Made by a program: the position numbers and the translations under genes. From Acidobacteriota bacterium (GTDB taxonomy: Bacteria > Acidobacteriota > Vicinamibacteria > Marinacidobacterales > Marinacidobacteraceae), in assembly GCA_009835985.1 (NCBI GenBank), contig VXWI01000010.1:1-64000 (forward strand): a stretch of 64,000 nucleotides of DNA, in the 5' to 3' direction. The notes below the pieces were generated by a model. That model had not been told where the DNA came from. It saw nothing but the letters and a program-made list of their open reading frames with translations, and ran no database searches. Shown here in pieces: positions 11,755-58,542 of this stretch (its first letter is position 1; each line of letters starts with the position of its first letter).

Positions 11755-11838
11755 GCCGAAGTGGCGGAACGGCAGACGCGCTGCGTTCAGGGCGCAGTAC
11801 TCCTTGCGAGTGTCAGGGTTCAAATCCCTGCTTCGGCA
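11755..11838 (+). tRNA. tRNA-Leu (anticodon CAG)
   Basis: Acceptor GCCGAAG/CTTCGGC; anticodon stem-loop CTGCG-TTCAGGG-CGCAG; long variable arm; T arm CAGGGTTCAAATCCCTG. CCA not fully encoded (ACCG). Confidence 0.95.
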
Positions 11839-11847
11839 CCGCGCGCT

Positions 11848-12078
11848 GGTCGGCCGGCGGACGGGGCCACTGGACCGGGTCCGAAAAGATCACGAATCCT
11901 TGTAAACGCAAGGCCCCGTCCGCCGACCGACCGGCACTTCGTGCCCCGAATCGAAACTCGCCGCATTGGGTTGTACGGGTTTGAACCATAAGGCCCCGTT
12001 CACAAACGCAGGCGAGTTCCGATTCGCGCTGTCTTTTTTGTGAAAGGGGGCCCGCCCCCCTTTCACACTTTCCCCCCA
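11848..12078 (-). repeat. Intact copy (copy A) of a dispersed multi-stem palindromic repeat / candidate structured RNA
   Basis: On the minus strand: GGGGGGAAAGTG box, hairpin P1 (12040-12050/12056-12066), P2 (12011-12026/11947-11962), P3 GGCAC-GAA-GTGCC (11933-11945), P4 21-bp stem (11912-11932/11848-11868). Same architecture as the 58354-58542 copy. Confidence 0.8.
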
Positions 12079-49301: not shown

Positions 49302-49359
49302 GGAGCGAACTCTGTTCGCTCCCCGCGAGTTCGGGGGAAAGTGTGAAAGGGGGTCCGCC
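49302..49359 (+). repeat. Left remnant of the interrupted multi-stem repeat, ending in the attL core
   Basis: Hairpin GGAGCGAAC-TCT-GTTCGCTCC (49302-49322), then CGCGAGTTCGGGGGAAAGTG-TGAAAGGGGGTCCGCC, collinear with the 5' part of copy A. The matching 3' part is found only at 58370 onward. Confidence 0.75.
49344..49359 (+). repeat. Putative attL core (16-bp direct repeat)
   Basis: TGAAAGGGGGTCCGCC, identical to 58354-58369; flanking bases differ on both sides. Confidence 0.8.
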
Positions 49360-49543
49360 ACCGTCACAACCGTAACCCAATGACCCCATTGGCTTTACGG
49401 ACACCGATCCGGTTCACTGGCCCCCGCCGAGGCCCCCCGCGCGGACGGGATTCTGCGGCGAGTTTTGGGCCCGTGCGGGACCACAAAGCACTCAACGAGC
49501 AGGCGGTCAGGGCCGAGCATTCTGCATCCGCGACCGGGGGTGT

Positions 49544-50293
49544 TCATCTCGCTTTCGGATCGGATGGCACATCCCGAACCGCGAGCATCTCATCACCGGT
49601 GGTAGTGACGATACGCACCGCGATCCGGCCGGACTTCGGGCGGCGGAACGGGGCCGAGGTCAGCGACTCCATGCTCGCCCAATGCTCCGGCCGGATGCGA
49701 GCGCCGAGGGCAGACTTGAAGCGCTTGAGTTGGCGGTCCTGCGACTTGCCGGGGAAGTGGATGCGGCGGGCGTAGAACGACTTGCCATCGTGGTCGGTGT
49801 CGAGCAACCAGCAATCAATGTCTCCCGGCTTCCCGGCGCGGATGTTCCCGGTCGCCGGGTCGTAGGTGTTCCACCCCTTCACTTCGACGACGATCCGCGC
49901 CGGTTGGCCGGGCGCGTCCCTTAACTCGATCTCCGGCTCGCCGACCACGACGAAGGCACGGTCTTTCTGGCCCGCCTTCAACTCGGCGATGGCGAGGTCC
50001 CGGTTCGCCCGGAGGCGGATGATCTCGAACCGCCCTCGCGCTTCGCGCGGCGCGGAATCGGCCTCGTATTCGAATGCGGCGACGATCAGTGTGCGGATGG
50101 CCCGCCGCCCGGCTGCCTCCTCGGCGGCGCGGTCCACCTGGTTCCGCGTCGCGGTCTGGTCGTCGGAAAGCACGGCTAGCGCCACGCGCTCGCCAGTCTC
50201 GCGGACCCGGGCTTCGTGGGTGAGGAAATCGGATGCATCGGGCCAAGTCTCGACTTCATCGAGATGCCAACGAAGCGCCCCCCCCCCCGACAT
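49544..50293 (-). pseudogene. mod: C-terminal portion of the Type III DNA methyltransferase Mod, out of frame with the upstream part
   Basis: 249-aa ORF: RFEIIRLRANRDLAIAELKAGQKDRAFVVVGEPEIEL...DIDCWLLDTDHDGKSFYARRIHFPG...SGRIAVRIVTTTGDEMLAVRDV, as in Mod C-termini. Begins inside the G11 tract where the upstream mod ORF terminates. Confidence 0.75.
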
Positions 50294-52121
50294 TTGTCAG
50301 GTTTGCGACGAAACCGGCGTTTCCGAGGGACTCCAGCATCCGCTCGCGGACTCCGGCGCGGAGTTCGCTCTCCTCGGCGCCGCCGGCCAGCGGTTCGTAG
50401 CGCCACGGGGAGTGGGATTCCACCGTGAAGGGTGCGGCGAGGCGCTTCCAGCCCTTTTTCTTCCGGGGCCGGTCCACGAGGAGGGTGGGCGTCTGAGGCA
50501 GATCGTAGGCGAGGATCTCCGCGGACACGTGAGGGAGTCGTTCATGGACGAAACCCGAGGCTGGGTCGTGGCTCGCCGTGGAGTCAGGCCTGGCCCCTGC
50601 TGAGCCCTCCGAGCCGCTGAGATCCACCTCTGCCTGCCACCCCTCTAGGTCGTCCTTGGTCAGGAACCAGTCGTGGACGCCGGTGAGGATGCGCTGCCGG
50701 GCGAGCGCCACCGGGACGGCACTCGCGTCAATCGTGATCCAGCGCCGTCCCCAACGCTCGGCAACGAGGGCGGTCGTGCCGGAACCGCAGGTGGGGTCGA
50801 GGATGAGATCGCCGGGATCGGTGGCCATCAGGATGCAGCGCTCGATGACGGACTCGGCGGTCTCAACGACGTAGTGCATGTCATCGGGTTTCATCTGTCG
50901 GTGCCAGAGGTTGTCAATCTTCACGCCGGCAAATTCGTCCTCGAAACGCATCCAGCGGAGCGGGCTGTCTTCTTTGGCGGCATCCAAACGTCCGAGTTCG
51001 GCGAGTCGCTCCATCCCTTCCATGCTCACCGACCAATGGCGCGTCGCAGGGCATGGGTACTCGCGGCCCCGCCAAGTAAATGACTCGGAGCGGCCGGTCC
51101 GAGATTCTCCCTGCGAATCCAGGGGCCGGCGCTGATAAACCCGTGCGCCGACAGGAAGGTGGTTGTCCGGATCCTCTCGTTCAGCCACTGTCGGGGCGCG
51201 CCGCGCTCCGTCGGGGAGGAGAACCATCGCGTCCCAGTTCATCGCCTTGATCTTTTCCGAGCGAGTAAGCGCTTCGTAGAGCTGTCTGAACTTCAACCGT
51301 TCCTTCGCCGGGGAGTACCACAGGAGCCAGTCGTTCACCTCCGGGAGGGTGTTAGCCGAGGTCGAACCACTTTTCTTGAAGGCGATCGTCGCCACCCTGT
51401 TCTCTGGGCCGAACACCTCGTCAAGCACCAGCGAGCAGCGGTGCAGGTTCTCCGAGCTGATCTGGAGGAAAAAGCTCCCCGACTCCGTGAGCAACTCGCG
51501 TCCGAACGCCGCCGTCCGATATACCGCGTCCAGATACGAGTGAATCCCGTCCCGGTATGTGTCCCGAAACGCCTTCGCCGGTGCCGCCTCGGAAGGCGTC
51601 CCTCCGGCACGCTTCCGCGTGTTCGGCTGGAATGAGGCGTCGAACTTGATGCCGTAGGGCGGGTCCCAGTAGATCATCTGGACCTTTCCGGCGAGGTCCT
51701 CCTTCCCGGCGAGCGACGCCATCACGTCTTCGGAATGCCCCTTGATGAGCCGGTTCGACCAGTTCCCCCGGTGGGTGTAGCAGGACCACGCGGCGTCGGG
51801 CGGCAGCCCGTTGAATTCGTCGAACAGGGTCGGCGCCGGTTCTCCCCTGAGCTGTTCGGCGAACGCCGTCGGCGAGACCTTCTCGTGGACGTAGAGCGGG
51901 CCGGCGTTCGTGGTCAGCTCGTCGAGCGACTTCCCCCGCCGCCAGGAGAGCCGCGGCCCCTCCGACGCTCGCCGCTCCGGCGTGTAGGGGACCGCCGCAA
52001 GTTCTTCCTCCCGCATGTAGCGCTCGGTCTGGTCGGTGGGCAGGTTGGCTCGCTTCGCCTCGGCATGGGTGTAGGCGAGTAGCGGCTTCGTCGCGCGGGT
52101 CGCCTTCTTCTTCGCGCTCAC
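50256..52121 (-). CDS. mod: Type III-like site-specific DNA methyltransferase (N-6 adenine / N-4 cytosine), N-terminal part truncated by frameshift
   Basis: GTG start 52121 overlaps the res stop (TAGTG). VQMIYWDPPYGIKFDASFQPN (DPPY motif), LILDPTCGSGTTALVAERWGRRWITIDAS (FxGxG-type SAM motif). Confidence 0.88.
   Translation of the reverse strand: MSAKKKATRATKPLLAYTHAEAKRANLPTDQTERYMREEELAAVPYTPERRASEGPRLSWRRGKSLDELTTNAGPLYVHEKVSPTAFAEQLRGEPAPTLFDEFNGLPPDAAWSCYTHRGNWSNRLIKGHSEDVMASLAGKEDLAGKVQMIYWDPPYGIKFDASFQPNTRKRAGGTPSEAAPAKAFRDTYRDGIHSYLDAVYRTAAFGRELLTESGSFFLQISSENLHRCSLVLDEVFGPENRVATIAFKKSGSTSANTLPEVNDWLLWYSPAKERLKFRQLYEALTRSEKIKAMNWDAMVLLPDGARRAPTVAEREDPDNHLPVGARVYQRRPLDSQGESRTGRSESFTWRGREYPCPATRHWSVSMEGMERLAELGRLDAAKEDSPLRWMRFEDEFAGVKIDNLWHRQMKPDDMHYVVETAESVIERCILMATDPGDLILDPTCGSGTTALVAERWGRRWITIDASAVPVALARQRILTGVHDWFLTKDDLEGWQAEVDLSGSEGSAGARPDSTASHDPASGFVHERLPHVSAEILAYDLPQTPTLLVDRPRKKKGWKRLAAPFTVESHSPWRYEPLAGGAEESELRAGVRERMLESLGNAGFVANLTNVGGGGASLASR
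50278..50288 (-). repeat. Homopolymer G11 (coding strand) in mod
   Basis: Eleven consecutive C on the + strand (CGAAGCG-CCCCCCCCCCC-GACATTTG). G10 or G13 would fuse the 622-codon and 249-aa ORFs in frame. Confidence 0.95.
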
Positions 52122-54997
52122 TAGTCCTCCCGTCCGTCCATGGCGGCGGAGATCTGCTCCGCAGCATCCAGCAGGCTCTCGATCCAGACCACCCTCCATT
52201 GCCCGTAGTCCTCGCCGCCTTCCCGATACGCGGAGACTGCGTCGCACCAGCGGCCAAGCCAGACCCGCTTCGCCTCCTCGCTGGCCTCCCCGGCCTTCAA
52301 TCCCTTGAACTCGATCACGAGATGGAGCGATCGTTTCCCCGGCCTCGGAACCGCCCGCGCCACGAAGTCGGGCTCGGTCCGCCGCCAGAGATCGAGCTCC
52401 GGGTCGAACCAGGGAACCTCCCAGCCCAGCCGGAAGTTCCGCGCCCAAGCGGCGACGCCTGGATGCTTGTCGAGGATCCCGGCGAGTTCCCGTTCGGGGA
52501 GCGAGTGACACGCCGCCGCGTTCAACTCGGAGCGCGTGGCGTCGTGGCGGTGCGGCAGGGTCGTCTCGAAGTCCACGTCGGCGGTATCCCGAAACCGCGC
52601 CGACCCGCGGTCGCGCTCGTCGGCGAAGACCGGTCGCCACGGAGCAAGCGGCACGTGCGGCTCGCAGGCCGCGGCGATGTCGCGCAACGCCCTCTCGTCG
52701 TACTGGAGCCCCGATGAGTCAGGGCAGACGACCTGCGGCAACCGCAGGACCTCGCGCACCGCCGTCAGCGAATCCATGAACGCAATCCGCCGCTGCCTCC
52801 GATGTAGATCTCGGTGATCGCCGACCCTGGCCGCGGCCTGCCATAGGTCCGTCTCCTCGCGATCCTCGCGAAGAATCTGCTGTTCGTCGCCGGCCGAACC
52901 CGCTTCGGCCGTGACATCGGGAGTGGGACGATGGTCCACCGTCCGGGCCGCGACCTTCGCCGGGTTCAGGACCCAGCGCGTCACCCTTTCAGGGGGTGCG
53001 TACCCGACGACGTTCGGAAAAACGATCCGGCAACCGCCGCGGCCGAGAACGGTGAACACGCGCCACGGCTGGATCGGAACCAGTGGCGCCGGGTCATTGT
53101 CGCTGCGGGCGAAGGTGTAGGGGATCCCGAAAACGTTTGCGTACTCCGGGGCCTGCGGCTCGTCCTTCCCGCTGAACGCGGTGCGCCGGAGCGCCCGCCC
53201 CGTCACCTGCTCGCAGAGAAGGAGGCTCCCGAAGCGGCGGTAGCCGAAGATGTGGGTCACGTTCCGGGCATCCCAGCCCTCGGTGAGCATCCCCACGGAC
53301 ACCACACAGCGGATGTGTTCGCCGGGTTCGCCCTTCCGTCCCGCGGTCGTGAAGATCTCACGGATCGCACCCTGTTTCTCCGCTTTCGTCTCCGCGTCCG
53401 GCGCGTGGAGAGCCGCCTGCTCCTCGATGGCGGCCGCCGCCTTGCCGGTCAGTCCTTCGGGGTCGCCGAGCTTCGAATGGACGAGGACCGTGGGCGGGTG
53501 AGGCTTGGACGTACCGTCGGTTTCGTAGTTCGAGAGGAGGGCGAGCTTGCCCGGTGTTCCCAGCCCGCCAGCGCGCGGAGCCCCAGCGATCCAGGAGTGG
53601 AGCCGCTCGGCGTTCGCGATCTTGTTGGCCACGACGATGAAGATGGGGAGGATTCCTCTCTGCCGGAAGGCGGGCTCGACCCGGGTCTCGTAGTGCTCGT
53701 AGAGTTCGGCGAGCGGCTCCCGCACCTTCCCCTGCGGCCCGCCCCTCGGCACATCCTTCCCTTCCGCGAAGACGTACACGTTCCGGTACCTCGGCTGCTC
53801 GGCACTGCGGTCGTCGGCGACGGGCACCCGCGGCACCTTGGTGAGCCCCGACTCGATGGCGTCGAGCAGGGGGAAGTCGGAAACCGTCCAGGGAAAAATC
53901 TCCGAGTTCAGTTCCGCTGGCCGTCGCAGCCACATCGGAGTCGCCGAGAGATCGAAGACCTGTTCCAGGCGGTCCTCGTCGTGAAGCGCCTCGAGCGCCG
54001 AAAACCAAAGTGCCGCCTCCTGCCGGTCCTTCCGCTCCTCGGCGTCCACTTTCCCCTTGATCTCCCCAGGGGCGTAGCAGTGGTGCGCCTCGTCGTTGAA
54101 GACCACGAGGTGGGCTCCCCGCCGGTGCGCCCGCAGGAGCCGGTCGAGCATCGCCTGCGGCGTCTCGGTCCAGTTCGCCGGCTCGGGCGTCCCGGCGCGC
54201 AGGAAGCGCTTCTCCTTCCCGCCCGCGTCCTCGATGCCGTCGGGGCCGCTCCGCCGCTGGAACTTCTGGAAGTTGAGGATGCTCCAGCGCATCCGCCGGC
54301 GGTAGCGCTCGAAGCCGCGTGGCGTGATGGAGTCCCAGAGCCGGTCTCCGTTCTTCGGATCCAGCGCGGCGAGACGGTCCCGCACGGTGAGATTCGGTGC
54401 GATCGCGAGGAAGTGCGCCTCCGCCCGGGACCGGGCCGCCCACCACAGCGCAAGCATCGCCATGAGGTTCGTTTTCCCGGTTCCCGTGGCCATCTTGAGG
54501 GCCAGTCGCGGAATCCCGGCGTTCCACCGCCCGTTGACTTCGGCTAGCCGCGCCGCGATCCGGGCATGATCGTCGGGCGCCGCTTGCGGGCCGGCCTCGA
54601 GGAGCCAGATCGCCGTCTCGGCGCCTTCGAGTTGGCACCAGAACGGCCGAAACTCCGACCCGGGCGAGGTCCAATGTTCGAGCAGCCGCCGCGTCGGGGA
54701 GGAGAGTCCGGGCCGACCAGCGGAGCGCCAGTCCCCGAGCAGTGTGCGCAACTCGTTGATGGTGCGGTGGGGTTCCAGCGCCGCCGTCCACGGTTGGGAA
54801 TCGGGTGCCGTCCCCCAGACCGATGGGGCGCCTTTCGGTGCCGGGACTCCGGAGGACGAGAAGCTCGGGCGCCGTCCGGGACTCTGGTGATCCGTGGTTC
54901 GACCCGTGGCATCGAGGCACCAGTGCGTGGTGGGTGCCTCGTACGGAGTGCGCAGAACCGGGTTGCGTGCCGCGCTCGGGCTCGTCGGTTTCGCCAC
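52121..54997 (-). CDS. res: Type III-like restriction endonuclease subunit (SF2 helicase; resembles the BPTD_3080-type family)
   Basis: 958 aa; RTPYEAPTTHWCLDATGRTTDHQSPGRRPS N-terminus; LALKMATGTGKTNLMAMLALWWA (Walker A); VVFNDEAHHCY (DEAH); DLSATPMWLRRP; VTHIFGYRRFGSLLLCEQVTGRALRR. Confidence 0.87.
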   Translation of the reverse strand: MAKPTSPSAARNPVLRTPYEAPTTHWCLDATGRTTDHQSPGRRPSFSSSGVPAPKGAPSVWGTAPDSQPWTAALEPHRTINELRTLLGDWRSAGRPGLSSPTRRLLEHWTSPGSEFRPFWCQLEGAETAIWLLEAGPQAAPDDHARIAARLAEVNGRWNAGIPRLALKMATGTGKTNLMAMLALWWAARSRAEAHFLAIAPNLTVRDRLAALDPKNGDRLWDSITPRGFERYRRRMRWSILNFQKFQRRSGPDGIEDAGGKEKRFLRAGTPEPANWTETPQAMLDRLLRAHRRGAHLVVFNDEAHHCYAPGEIKGKVDAEERKDRQEAALWFSALEALHDEDRLEQVFDLSATPMWLRRPAELNSEIFPWTVSDFPLLDAIESGLTKVPRVPVADDRSAEQPRYRNVYVFAEGKDVPRGGPQGKVREPLAELYEHYETRVEPAFRQRGILPIFIVVANKIANAERLHSWIAGAPRAGGLGTPGKLALLSNYETDGTSKPHPPTVLVHSKLGDPEGLTGKAAAAIEEQAALHAPDAETKAEKQGAIREIFTTAGRKGEPGEHIRCVVSVGMLTEGWDARNVTHIFGYRRFGSLLLCEQVTGRALRRTAFSGKDEPQAPEYANVFGIPYTFARSDNDPAPLVPIQPWRVFTVLGRGGCRIVFPNVVGYAPPERVTRWVLNPAKVAARTVDHRPTPDVTAEAGSAGDEQQILREDREETDLWQAAARVGDHRDLHRRQRRIAFMDSLTAVREVLRLPQVVCPDSSGLQYDERALRDIAAACEPHVPLAPWRPVFADERDRGSARFRDTADVDFETTLPHRHDATRSELNAAACHSLPERELAGILDKHPGVAAWARNFRLGWEVPWFDPELDLWRRTEPDFVARAVPRPGKRSLHLVIEFKGLKAGEASEEAKRVWLGRWCDAVSAYREGGEDYGQWRVVWIESLLDAAEQISAAMDGRED

Positions 54998-55077
54998 CGG
55001 GTCCGATTATCCCGCAAGGCACGAACGAGTCGGACCGCACCGGGTCCCGCGCCAGACATCGGCGACTTTGAATGTTC

Positions 55078-55214
55078 CAGCCGCCATCGCCCTCTTACGG
55101 CCCGCAGTCCGGGCCGCCTACCGGCGTTCGGACCTGTTCGAGTGGCGGCGGGTGCTCATGGAGCAGTGGGCCGCGTGCCTGACGATGGAACGGGGAGCGC
55201 GGCTCCCCGAATAG
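55078..55214 (+). pseudogene. Remnant of a tyrosine integrase C-terminus
   Basis: + frame reading AAIALLRPAVRAAYRRSDLFEWRRVLMEQWAACL resembles the resident integrase C-terminus VEGAYRRTDLFEERRPVMDAWGEYVG. No integrase body upstream. Confidence 0.6.
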
Positions 55215-55286
55215 ACCGCCAAGCGGTCATCGATTCGCAGGCGAAGCACCAGAGTCGGCAGGCCAACTTGGTCGTGGGCCAGCCTA

Positions 55287-55306
55287 CCCAGTGTACGTAC
55301 ACTGGG
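55287..55306. repeat. Perfect 20-bp palindrome CCCAGTGTACGTACACTGGG
   Basis: Sequence equals its own reverse complement; lies in a non-coding stretch. Confidence 0.9.
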
Positions 55307-55833
55307 CTCTGGCGAGGGGAGGCTGCGCCCCCCTTCGAACCCCCGGCTCCCGCGCCGCCGACGGAGTAGCGGACGCACGGGGGCAAGCCCCCGAACCCCC
55401 GCACCGGCGCGCGCTCACCGCGCAGCGGCGCACCGTGTGGTCGCCAGCCACGTCACGCTGGCGAACCGAGCCGCCTACGGCGTGGTGGAGGCCCTCCGGC
55501 TCCCCAAGGCCGGGGAGCCGGTCCAAGCGCCCTCGAAGAGCCCGGGATCGCCGCTTTGGTCCGCATCGGGGACCACCGGGCGGCCGGCGGCCTGGCCCGC
55601 CGCCTTCATCCGCACGCGGGCTTGTCAAGAGACACGCGTTCCGCGCCTGGCGGCGGTACCGCTTCCGGTAGCACCCCAGGGACCTCACCGGCGAAAACTG
55701 CGCGTCACGGCGAGATCAACCCTTACTATGATGTGACGGTGATTTTCGCAGCCCGCCGGATTCCGGCGTCCAGAATGCTCCGGGCGAACTCGTGCGCACC
55801 GAGGTGCCGAAGGCTCTTGGGCGGCGGGCAGCC

Positions 55834-56157
55834 ATGACAACGTTGATCGTCCCCTACCGCTGCGACGGCGGCGCGGACCGGGTAGGCTCGACACTCGGGT
55901 TCCGCCAGACCGGCTCCGAGTGGATCGGCGATTGTCCCGCGTGCGAGGGTTCAGAGGCTCTGGCGCTCCGGCCATCCGGTGAGGATCGCCCCGGACAGTT
56001 CGTCTGCGTCTGCCGGGGAGCGTGCGAGGAGGCGACCGGCCTGCGCGCTGTCCTTATCCGGATCCTCGGCCCGGAGGCTGCCCCCCAACCGCCGCGGAAC
56101 ACCAAGGTGCTTGACGACATGAACTTCGGCGGAGCGCTTGCCCGCAAGCGCGCCTGA
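55834..56157 (+). CDS. Small Cys-rich protein, CHC2/primase zinc-finger-like (tentative)
   Basis: MTTLIVPYRCDGGADRVGSTLGFRQTGSEWIGDCPACEGSEALALRPSGEDRPGQFVCVCRGACEEATGLRAVLIRIL: spaced Cys pairs and a primase-like 'GDCPAC..GSEAL'. Confidence 0.45.
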   Translation: MTTLIVPYRCDGGADRVGSTLGFRQTGSEWIGDCPACEGSEALALRPSGEDRPGQFVCVCRGACEEATGLRAVLIRILGPEAAPQPPRNTKVLDDMNFGGALARKRA

Positions 56158-56632
56158 GCGGAAGTCTCCGTCTACGTCACGCTGGCAGACCAAGCTCGCC
56201 CGGTCTCGCAGAGGCCCTCCGGCTCCCGACCGCCGGGCAGCGGGCCAACGGGGTCGTGAGCGGTTTGCGTGGGCGGTCGCCGCGATGCCTCAGTTTGAGG
56301 AGTGCAGCGGCACTAGTCCCGCCGGCGGAACAGCAGCAGGGCGAACCCAACGAGGGCCGCGGCCACCAGGCAGATCGTCAGGATGAGCATGGGACTGGAG
56401 TCGGGAGGAACCGGAAGGAGTACGCGCAACTACAAGGGTAGTAATCCGGCCCGCGGAGATTGCGGCTTACGTCCCCCGACGGGAAGCATCGTACACGACC
56501 TCTGCCAGCACATTCGTGTTGGCCGCTTTAACTAGACGGAGCCCTGCCGGCCGCTTGAGGCGGCGGGGCGGGGAACGAACCGAGCGTGCCGTGAGCAGTG
56601 CCCGTCGAAGGACACACCTGCCTCCGTCGCGT

Positions 56633-56810
56633 AACGAAGGCACGTTCGAAGCCTTCCCGCAGGGATCACTCGCGCCGGAGGCGCGGGCTGGGAGCGACCG
56701 CCGGCACGGGAGGGAAGAGTGGGACAAGCACTCTCCTCCGGGGCAGTTTTTCGACAAGAAAAGGCGGGTCGCTCCCAGCCCCGCTCCTTATGACCCCGAA
56801 TTGCGGGGTC
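56633..56810. other. Cluster of consecutive strong hairpins in non-coding island DNA (candidate ncRNA or regulatory structure)
   Basis: GAAGGC..GCCTTC; CGCGCC-GGA-GGCGCG (56671-56685); long stem 56685-56702/56763-56781 enclosing AGAGTG..CACTCT; GACCCCG-AATTG-CGGGGTC (56792-56810). Confidence 0.5.
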
Positions 56811-57019
56811 AGCGGGACGAATTCCCAAGAAGGACAACCGGAATCACGCTCACGGGACTGGCACAAGCAGTGGCAAAAGGGGGGATCGTCTTAGTTGCGT
56901 GCGAAAGCGACCCCGAGCATGTCCCCGGCGAGCTCAAAACGCCCCACGGGAGTCGGATCGGTGTCGCGCTTGGCCCGGGACGACCGGACGCGAGCACCAT
57001 GTCGTCGAGGTCGGCCGTT

Positions 57020-58168
57020 TTACGCCCCGACGTACTCCCCCCAGGCGTCCATCACCGGCCTCCGCTCCTCGAACAGGTCCGTCCGGCGATACGCACCCTC
57101 AACCCCCTGGACCGTATGCGCCAGCGCCGCCTCCGCCAGCATCGGCGCGTTCCCACGCTCCGCACTCCAGTCGCTGAACGTCGAGCGGAACCCGTGAACC
57201 GTCGCACGCTCCCCTACCCCTGCCGACCACAGCGCGTTCGTCAGCGCCATGTCCTTCAACTCCCGCTCCCCCGAGCGGCCGGGGAACACCAGGTCGCAAC
57301 CCCTTCGGCTCCGCAACGAGCGGGCGCGCTCCAGGACCGCGACCGCCTGCGGACTCAGGGGAACCCGGTGCTCCTTCCCCGCCTTCATCCGCTCGCCGGG
57401 AACCGTCCAGCTGCGACCTTCCACGTCGATCTCCGACCAGCGCGCCCCCCGCGCCTCTCCGCTGCGCGCCGCCGTCAGGATCAAGAACCGGAGGCAGAGG
57501 CGGACTGCCGCCCGCGAACGCGACTCCTCCACCTTCGCCAGGAGCTCACGCACGTCCCTGTGAGGCAGGGCGCGGTGGCTCTTCACCCGCCGCCGCCGTT
57601 TCGGGAGCGCCCCGTCGATGGCCTCGCCCGCCGCGTTCCGCTCCACGAACTCCCGCGCCTGCGCCCAGCCCAGCACCGTGCGGACCTGCTGGCGCACCCG
57701 CTGGGCGGTGGTCGGCTTCCGGTTCCAGAGGTCCTCGTGGAAGAGCACCCGGAGCACGTCGTCCCCCCGGATCGCGTCCACCCGCATCGCTCCGAGCGTG
57801 GGGAGGACGTACCGCGCAAGGGTCCGCTCCCACGCCTCCGCGTACCGATCGCCCCGCCAGTTGGCCCGGCGCTCCGCCAGGGTCCGCTCCGCCGCCTCCC
57901 GGAAGGTGGGGACGCCCCCGCGGCGGCGCTCGGCGATGGGGTCCTTCCCCTCCCAGAGGACGCGGCGGTTCTGGAGGGCGACCATGCGGGCCTCGGCGAG
58001 CGAAACCAAGTCGAAGGGACCGATGGTGATGTCGCGGCGGACGCCGTTGACGGTGATCCGCTGGACCCATACCTTGGTGGCCCGAACCCGCAGGTAGAGG
58101 CCCCCACCGGCGCCATAGCGGCCGGGTTTGGTGAGGGCCTTGGCCCTTGCTGCGGTCATGTTCGCCAT
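57020..58168 (-). CDS. int: P4-type tyrosine recombinase/integrase
   Basis: Start MANMTAARAKALTKPGRYGAGGGLYLRV at 58168 (DUF4102-like N-domain); LTAARSGEARGARWSEID, HRVPLS, VHGFRSTFSDWSAE, AHTVQGVEGAYRRTDLFEERRPVMDAW catalytic-domain motifs. Confidence 0.93.
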   Translation of the reverse strand: MANMTAARAKALTKPGRYGAGGGLYLRVRATKVWVQRITVNGVRRDITIGPFDLVSLAEARMVALQNRRVLWEGKDPIAERRRGGVPTFREAAERTLAERRANWRGDRYAEAWERTLARYVLPTLGAMRVDAIRGDDVLRVLFHEDLWNRKPTTAQRVRQQVRTVLGWAQAREFVERNAAGEAIDGALPKRRRRVKSHRALPHRDVRELLAKVEESRSRAAVRLCLRFLILTAARSGEARGARWSEIDVEGRSWTVPGERMKAGKEHRVPLSPQAVAVLERARSLRSRRGCDLVFPGRSGERELKDMALTNALWSAGVGERATVHGFRSTFSDWSAERGNAPMLAEAALAHTVQGVEGAYRRTDLFEERRPVMDAWGEYVGA

Positions 58169-58353
58169 GTTTGCCACTTCCGAACCGATTAGGCCCACTT
58201 TCTGGCCCACGGATTCGGCGGGAAGTGTAGCACCTTGAAGGCATGGCAGGGGACGGTGAGGGAATCGACCTAGAGTGCCAATAGCGTTGATAGTCTCGAC
58301 ATATAGGCCGTTATGACTCTGCTTGGGAACGCATGGCAACAGATCACTATGGA

Positions 58354-58369
58354 TGAAAGGGGGTCCGCC
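58354..58369 (+). repeat. Putative attR core (16-bp direct repeat)
   Basis: TGAAAGGGGGTCCGCC, identical to 49344-49359. Confidence 0.8.
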
Positions 58370-58542
58370 CCCTTTCACAAAAAAGAAACGACAAACCGGA
58401 ACTCGCCGAAGCGCGCACCAGCGCGCGAGGGAGTTTCGGTTTGCGGCGCGAAGCGCCGGGCGGTTCGGGAGCGGGGATGCCACTCGCTCGCGCTCGACGG
58501 CTCGATTTGCCTCGCCCCTGCACCCCCGCTCCCGGACCGCTC
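58354..58542 (+). repeat. Right, larger part of the interrupted multi-stem repeat (copy C)
   Basis: P1 58354-58363/58368-58377; P2 CAAACCGGAACTC (58392-58404)/GAGTTTCGGTTTG (58431-58443); P3 GGCGC-GAA-GCGCC (58445-58457); P4 CGGTTCGGGAGCGGGG (58461-58476)/CCCCGCTCCCGGACCG (58524-58539). Confidence 0.8.

Follow-up and report, generated by a model that had tools for sequence, protein, structure and literature searches.

The window, the whole stretch of 64,000 nucleotides that was analysed, carries a tRNA-Leu(CAG) gene and, 7 bp beyond its 3′ end, the P4 end of one copy (copy A) of a dispersed, many-hairpin repeat. Farther along it carries a second copy, split by a genomic island with genes for a tyrosine integrase, a type III methyltransferase and a ResIII-type helicase/restriction subunit (Table 1). 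The repeat is about 300 bases long and is present at about ten to thirty copies per genome in one Acidobacteriota genus. The first-pass annotation had described copies A and C as sharing a box, P1, a linker, P2, P3 and P4, and we found that both contain all of these parts in the given order. An outer hairpin module, P0, precedes the box in other copies; copy A lacks P0 and has a REP hairpin in its place. In what follows, the strand proposed by the first-pass annotation is called the box-first strand and its complement the P4-first strand.

Table 1. Repeat copies, island and neighbouring features of the window.
Feature	Position	Strand	Basis or remark
tRNA-Leu(CAG)	11755..11840	+	ARAGORN, Rfam tRNA
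Copy A	11848..12078	-	Sequence; covariance-model match G000:C46:11931-12076:-, 79.8 bits; fold z
Copy A box; P1; A-rich linker	12077-12066; 12065-12041; 12040-12027	-	Minus-strand order
Copy A P2 outer arms	12026-12014 / 11959-11947	-	Long loop between
Copy A P3; P4	11945-11933; 11932-11848	-	
P0 hairpin GGAGCGAACAGAGTTCGCTCC then ATTGTTTTTT	49302..49322	-	Rho-independent terminator-like outer module, split copy B/C
Box + left P1 arm	49333..49359	+	Left half of split repeat; direct repeat, orthologous empty site
Genomic island inside P1, ~9.0 kb	49344..58369		16-bp direct repeat, integrase, uninterrupted orthologous site L043/L089
attL TGAAAGGGGGTCCGCC	49344-49359	+	Direct repeat with 58354-58369
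Type III methyltransferase, C-terminal part, cargo	49544..50293	-	PADLOC MTase_III 5.2e-34, profile 740-980
Type III DNA methyltransferase, N-terminal + central part, cargo	50256..52640	-	Pfam N6_N4_Mtase 5e-28; PADLOC MTase_III 8e-112, profile 81-584
ResIII-type helicase/restriction subunit, cargo	52121..54997	-	Pfam ResIII 1.5e-6; PADLOC REase_III weak match, 0.0031
Island tyrosine integrase	57020..58162	-	Pfam Phage_integrase 1.1e-17, Phage_int_M, Arm-DNA-bind_3
attR TGAAAGGGGGTCCGCC	58354..58369	+	Direct repeat
Copy C, right half of split repeat	58354..58542	+	Sequence, BLAST, covariance-model match
Copy C P1; linker; P2	58354-58377; 58378-58391; 58392-58443	+	
Copy C P3; P4	58444-58458; 58459-58542	+	

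A covariance model covering P1-P3 was built from 29 copies. In this alignment 96.9% of the cells were paired, against only 33-55% in slid registers, and 28 cells showed changes on both sides of a pair, against 6.2 +/- 1.9 in shuffles (0/500) and 1-3 in slid registers. The both-sided changes fall on six pairs, the covarying stems being P1-P3, and this bears out the earlier claim that the stems differ in sequence yet stay paired. Copy A folded with z = -7.8 on the minus strand and -7.0 on the plus strand relative to dinucleotide shuffles. P4 is wholly different between paralogues, with its inverted repeat kept; it mostly spans 79-91 nt (modal 85-86, a near-constancy that comes partly from differently drawn stem ends), and its loops of ~43 nt are unrelated in sequence between paralogues despite this near-constant span. 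In one class of copies the P2 loop is long, at 46-49 nt.

Two further features of the structure were observed. About ten copies (L004, L045, L046, L049, L051, L057, L067, L076, L077 and L092) carry a ~100-nt hairpin module, CCCGAGCCAGGAGCGGTTGGAAGCCGGG...GCGGCAC, at the same place between P2 and P3. The box and left P1 arm (49333-49353, and other copies) form a homopurine mirror repeat, GGGGGAAAG-TGT-GAAAGGGGG, for which H-DNA is possible in principle; a purine-motif triplex was nevertheless rejected, since the box often varies (AATG, AAAGC) without the P1 arm and the mirror is thus not kept.

The first-pass annotation had proposed a dispersed repeat with further copies, to be sought with a covariance model in the genome and its relatives. 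Such copies were found: a DNA-level BLAST of the own genome (G000) gave ~13 copies or partial copies, while the covariance model gave 17 matches there and ~115 over the 8 genomes of the genus (4-31 per genome). A DNA search of 60 relatives identified the repeat in 7/7 congeners and essentially nowhere else. An exact pattern searched against 85,462 species genomes hit 44 loci. Every one lies in an Acidobacteriota metagenome bin; these bins appear to belong to the same species group and, judging from their isolate names, come largely from marine-sponge material. Rfam, searched at gathering and lax thresholds, returned tRNAs only and no family for the repeat, in agreement with the earlier note, which had recognised no named RNA family; the sub-threshold matches were mostly to long-hairpin microRNA models.

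The covariance model also gave two weak matches in a sister-genus genome (G009), whereas a further 110 genomes sampled from the class yielded no match. These two matches look like genuine relatives, probably a rearranged sister family. The G009 elements, of which there are about eight copies, keep the order P1-linker-P2-P3-P4: P1 is GGGGGATCCCCC followed by an A-rich linker, P2 has an entirely different sequence with pairing kept, P3 is the identical GGCGCGAAGCGCC, and the P4 loop is 42 nt. One of them lies beside a tRNA with the same polarity as in the main genus. Several G009 copies (L229, L230, L232, L237, L238, L239) are immediately preceded by an identical 60-bp sequence ending ...CCGTAGCGCTGTAAG, probably an IS end, which at L238 adjoins a CRISPR-like array.

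The first-pass annotation had further taken a G-T pair in P2 and a T-G pair in P4, kept in copies A and C, as G-U pairs that predict the transcribed strand. Raw wobble counts over the family do favour the box-first strand (P1 6:0, P2 45:5, P4 76:11), although these cells are not independent of one another. At the P2 position in question, however, 62 copies showed G-T 38 times, G-G 15 times and G-C 9 times, indicating that mismatches are tolerated there; a quarter of the copies have no pair at this position. The P4 excess is located in the conserved stem base, where the wobble is common by descent, and in the variable (distal) part of P4 the ratio over 40 clusters was GT/TG 16 : AC/CA 9 (p = 0.26). 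Because the P2 site is not a kept pair and the excess in P4 comes from the conserved stem base, the raw wobble excess is not independent evidence, and wobble asymmetry as a proof of strand was rejected, failing once inherited and unpaired positions are removed. A weak lean to the box-first strand is left at an inner P2 pair, which is U-G in 8/29 copies and A-C in none. The P4-first strand is the one indicated by gene context and by the P0 terminator.

In 29 of the 34 independent loci, the gene or tRNA next to P4 has the opposite orientation (29 vs 5, p = 4e-5), and the 3′ ends that face P4 are mostly 3-8 bp away, as judged from gene calls by a home-made simple codon-score model. Among the tRNA-adjacent copies, the tRNA lies on the P0 side in only one. 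The arrangement of tRNA-Leu(CAG) and repeat recurs in three congeners (L062, L081, L088), and read-through from this tRNA would produce a + strand transcript of copy A, against the earlier proposal. On the P4-first strand, a T tract follows P0 in 43 of 55 copies and an A tract in none; the tract has a mean of 6.6 T in 14 nt against a window background of 2.1, and among random 14-mers of the window 1.4% reach 6 T. A terminator scan detected P0 at 49322-49302 on the minus strand, and also in L007 and L013. The linker after P2 is likewise 52% T and 4% A on the P4-first strand (66 copies). P0 has the hairpin and T tract of a Rho-independent terminator (43/55), in the matching orientation (29:5). 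Because of the 29/34 orientation, the P0 T tract and the T-rich linker, the repeat can be interpreted as a structured 3′ UTR that ends in a putative Rho-independent terminator. There are exceptions: some copies, copy A among them, are without P0, and at the split copy at yajC the P4-side neighbour is on the same strand. As a counter-point, selection on the fold of such a transcript should leave wobbles of the P4-first strand, whereas the few free ones lean to the box-first strand.

The stretch at 49302-49359 had been noted as a remnant that completes copy C. It is indeed the missing 5′ part (P0, box and left P1 arm); what had been missed is the attachment site of an island, copy C and the remnant being a single element cut inside P1 by ~9.0 kb of inserted DNA. 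In a congener (G006, L043/L089), an intact repeat joins the same flanks at ~90% identity, and the two matches overlap by 11 bp. The island integrase shows catalytic-type R, HxxR and Y motifs, and its N-terminal end is directed at P1. The frame of its longest ORF extends to 58483 but on this last stretch reads through the repeat; short matches of the integrase to many repeat copies were accordingly discarded as an artefact. The type III methyltransferase (49544-52640, minus strand) lies in two overlapping frames, which may reflect a frameshift, phase variation or an assembly error.

We found the same junction across the genus. Close relatives of this integrase (subfamily A, 85-98% identical) abut P1 with the N-terminus toward it at 13/13 loci with a readable repeat junction; at L103, the core is followed by what is apparently a further island end, with no repeat half beyond it. 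Subfamilies B (61%) and C (54%) abut tRNA genes. When one repeat locus was searched against the genus, the 11 bp TGAAAGGGGGT formed the start of 16 right halves and the end of 17 left halves, the island counts resting on BLAST ends. A second island in the own genome (G000:C68) shares its left end and its core with the window island. A direct-repeat core at both ends, an adjacent integrase gene and an uninterrupted orthologue together mark a tyrosine-integrase attB, and to judge from these junctions P1 is a dedicated multicopy attB for this island family, at which the islands would integrate and excise. The attP of excised island circles is predicted to be GATCACTATGGA-TGAAAGGGGGT-CCGCCACCGTC. 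That the islands carry the repeat as cargo was unsupported, as only the core is common to islands and repeat. At L109/L225 (G000:C68:37900-47200), one repeat copy is interrupted in two places: P1 holds an island, and apical P2 holds ~2.3 kb of other DNA.

We consider it probable that the repeat is a 3′-end terminator cassette that islands exploit as a multicopy attB. This modular, palindrome-rich intergenic repeat would form the 3′ end of transcription units, with the transcript running from the stop codon or tRNA end through a few bases into P4, P3, P2 and a U-rich tract, and on through P1 and a pyrimidine box to P0, whose GC hairpin and U tract should stop transcription. Apart from this 3′-end role, the P1 hairpin TGAAAGGGGG-nnnn-CCCCCTTTCA would be the chromosomal attB, where the island tyrosine integrase is expected to recombine within the 11 bp core. 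The junctions and one occupied/empty pair show the outcome, in which the box and P0 are separated by the island from P1-P4. A bolder version, which we regard as rather unlikely, is a landing-pad system: a maintained, host-dispersed, terminator-sealed cassette in which P1 and P3 serve different integrase lineages, islands with defence or other genes accumulate safely behind genes, and the ~86-nt P4 hairpin, with its unrelated loops of constant length, is a further functional module.

A less probable but still credible alternative to the terminator cassette is a non-autonomous, MITE/REPIN-like repeat that folds as ssDNA on the box-first strand and is mobilised in trans by an HUH or tyrosine enzyme, its 3′-end sites reflecting target choice and the terminator being incidental. 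The lean of the wobbles to one strand is consistent with it, as are the sub-modules that occur apart ([P3-P4] without [P0-P2] at L177, L196 and L213) and the presence/absence at one locus (L005), where the repeat is present in G000 and absent from G002, G007 and G004. At L005, these three congeners have REPs where the repeat would be, with no clean target-site duplication and much diverged spacers. Movement by some trans-acting enzyme is likely. However, no clean duplication was seen at the empty sites, with their much diverged spacers, and this reading gives no account of P0 or of the T tract that follows it. In addition, all 8 congeners encode RAYT-type Y1 transposases, 1-2 per genome (L093-L100; that of the own genome at G000:C102:28593), which are flanked by ordinary small REPs (GCCGGTCTGGAGACCGGCGTTCC) instead of the repeat. 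In the genomes inspected, the RAYT loci held small GCCGG..CCGGCG REPs and no module of the repeat was seen; a RAYT/REP origin was rejected, the RAYT genes being present but beside other repeats.

A stand-alone structured ncRNA on the box-first strand, from box to P4, would account for the covarying stems and the raw wobble counts, but the wobble excess falls mostly at inherited or unpaired positions, a scan of three regions gave no promoter-like site, at 29/34 loci P4 runs up against a convergent gene's 3′ end, and the A-rich tracts yield terminators on the other strand only. We hold this reading to be very improbable. Chance palindromes or an assembly artefact might be suspected, since all genomes are fragmented draft metagenome bins with many copies close to contig ends; ~115 matches spread over 8 species with independent assemblies, orthologous copies at ~90% identity and covariation above that of all shuffles make the probability of this negligible.

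Integron attC sites are also palindromic, sequence-variable structured stems recombined by a tyrosine recombinase. Unlike in that system, the island integrase has an island-type Arm-DNA-binding domain, there are no cassette arrays, and the core is an ordinary short inverted repeat. Among known elements, intergenic repeats that are terminator-like or modular (SPRITE, BOX, ERIC) and REPs come closest. SPRITE, BOX and RUP of Streptococcus pneumoniae are small intergenic structured repeats, some of them modular, which insert into one another, and SPRITE carries a Rho-independent terminator-like sequence (PMC10969869). The present repeat resembles them in being small, intergenic, structured and modular or terminator-like, but differs in sequence and phylum, in its four to five stems in fixed order, in its fixed polarity to gene 3′ ends and in serving as an integrase attB. 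REP/BIME and ERIC are dispersed extragenic palindromes, often at gene ends (PMC1525189, PMC10969869), and REPs are known targets of IS3, IS110, IS4, IS256 and IS5 family elements (PMC1525189). REPs are thus hit by IS transposases, whereas P1 is an attB for island tyrosine integrases; the repeat is also ~300 bp long, against 20-40 or ~127 bp for REP/ERIC, and the RAYT-REPs of the genus are a different repeat. As at the tRNA-gene attB sites catalogued by Islander (PMC4383910), there are a tyrosine integrase, a direct-repeat core and an int gene beside one junction, but the target is a multicopy non-coding repeat with many equivalent sites per genome. The titles and abstracts covered, a part of the literature, described no integrase with an extragenic repeat as attB.

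A dispersed non-coding repeat would here take a role that is usually that of tRNA genes, as the multicopy attachment site of tyrosine-integrase islands. Its location immediately after genes, where an insertion does no harm, suggests a reason for this use, and a multicopy attB helps to explain the tens of related integrases per genome in the genus (9-41). The locus is also a cautionary case, in which two-copy covariation and apparent G-U pairs suggested one strand, and the family and gene context indicate the other.

Another integrase subfamily of the genus, larger (dozens of members) and ~47% identical, lies directly beside short REP-like palindromes, for example GCCGACCGGAGGTCGGC or GCGGCCCTGCGGGCCGC (L070:4912-6231, L075:1544-2908, L131-L150, L108, L129), and REP palindromes appear to serve as attB sites as well. 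At L070, L075, L131 and L132, members of this subfamily adjoin the repeat's P3 hairpin (GCGGCGC|TAA), and L070 has islands at both P1 and P3.
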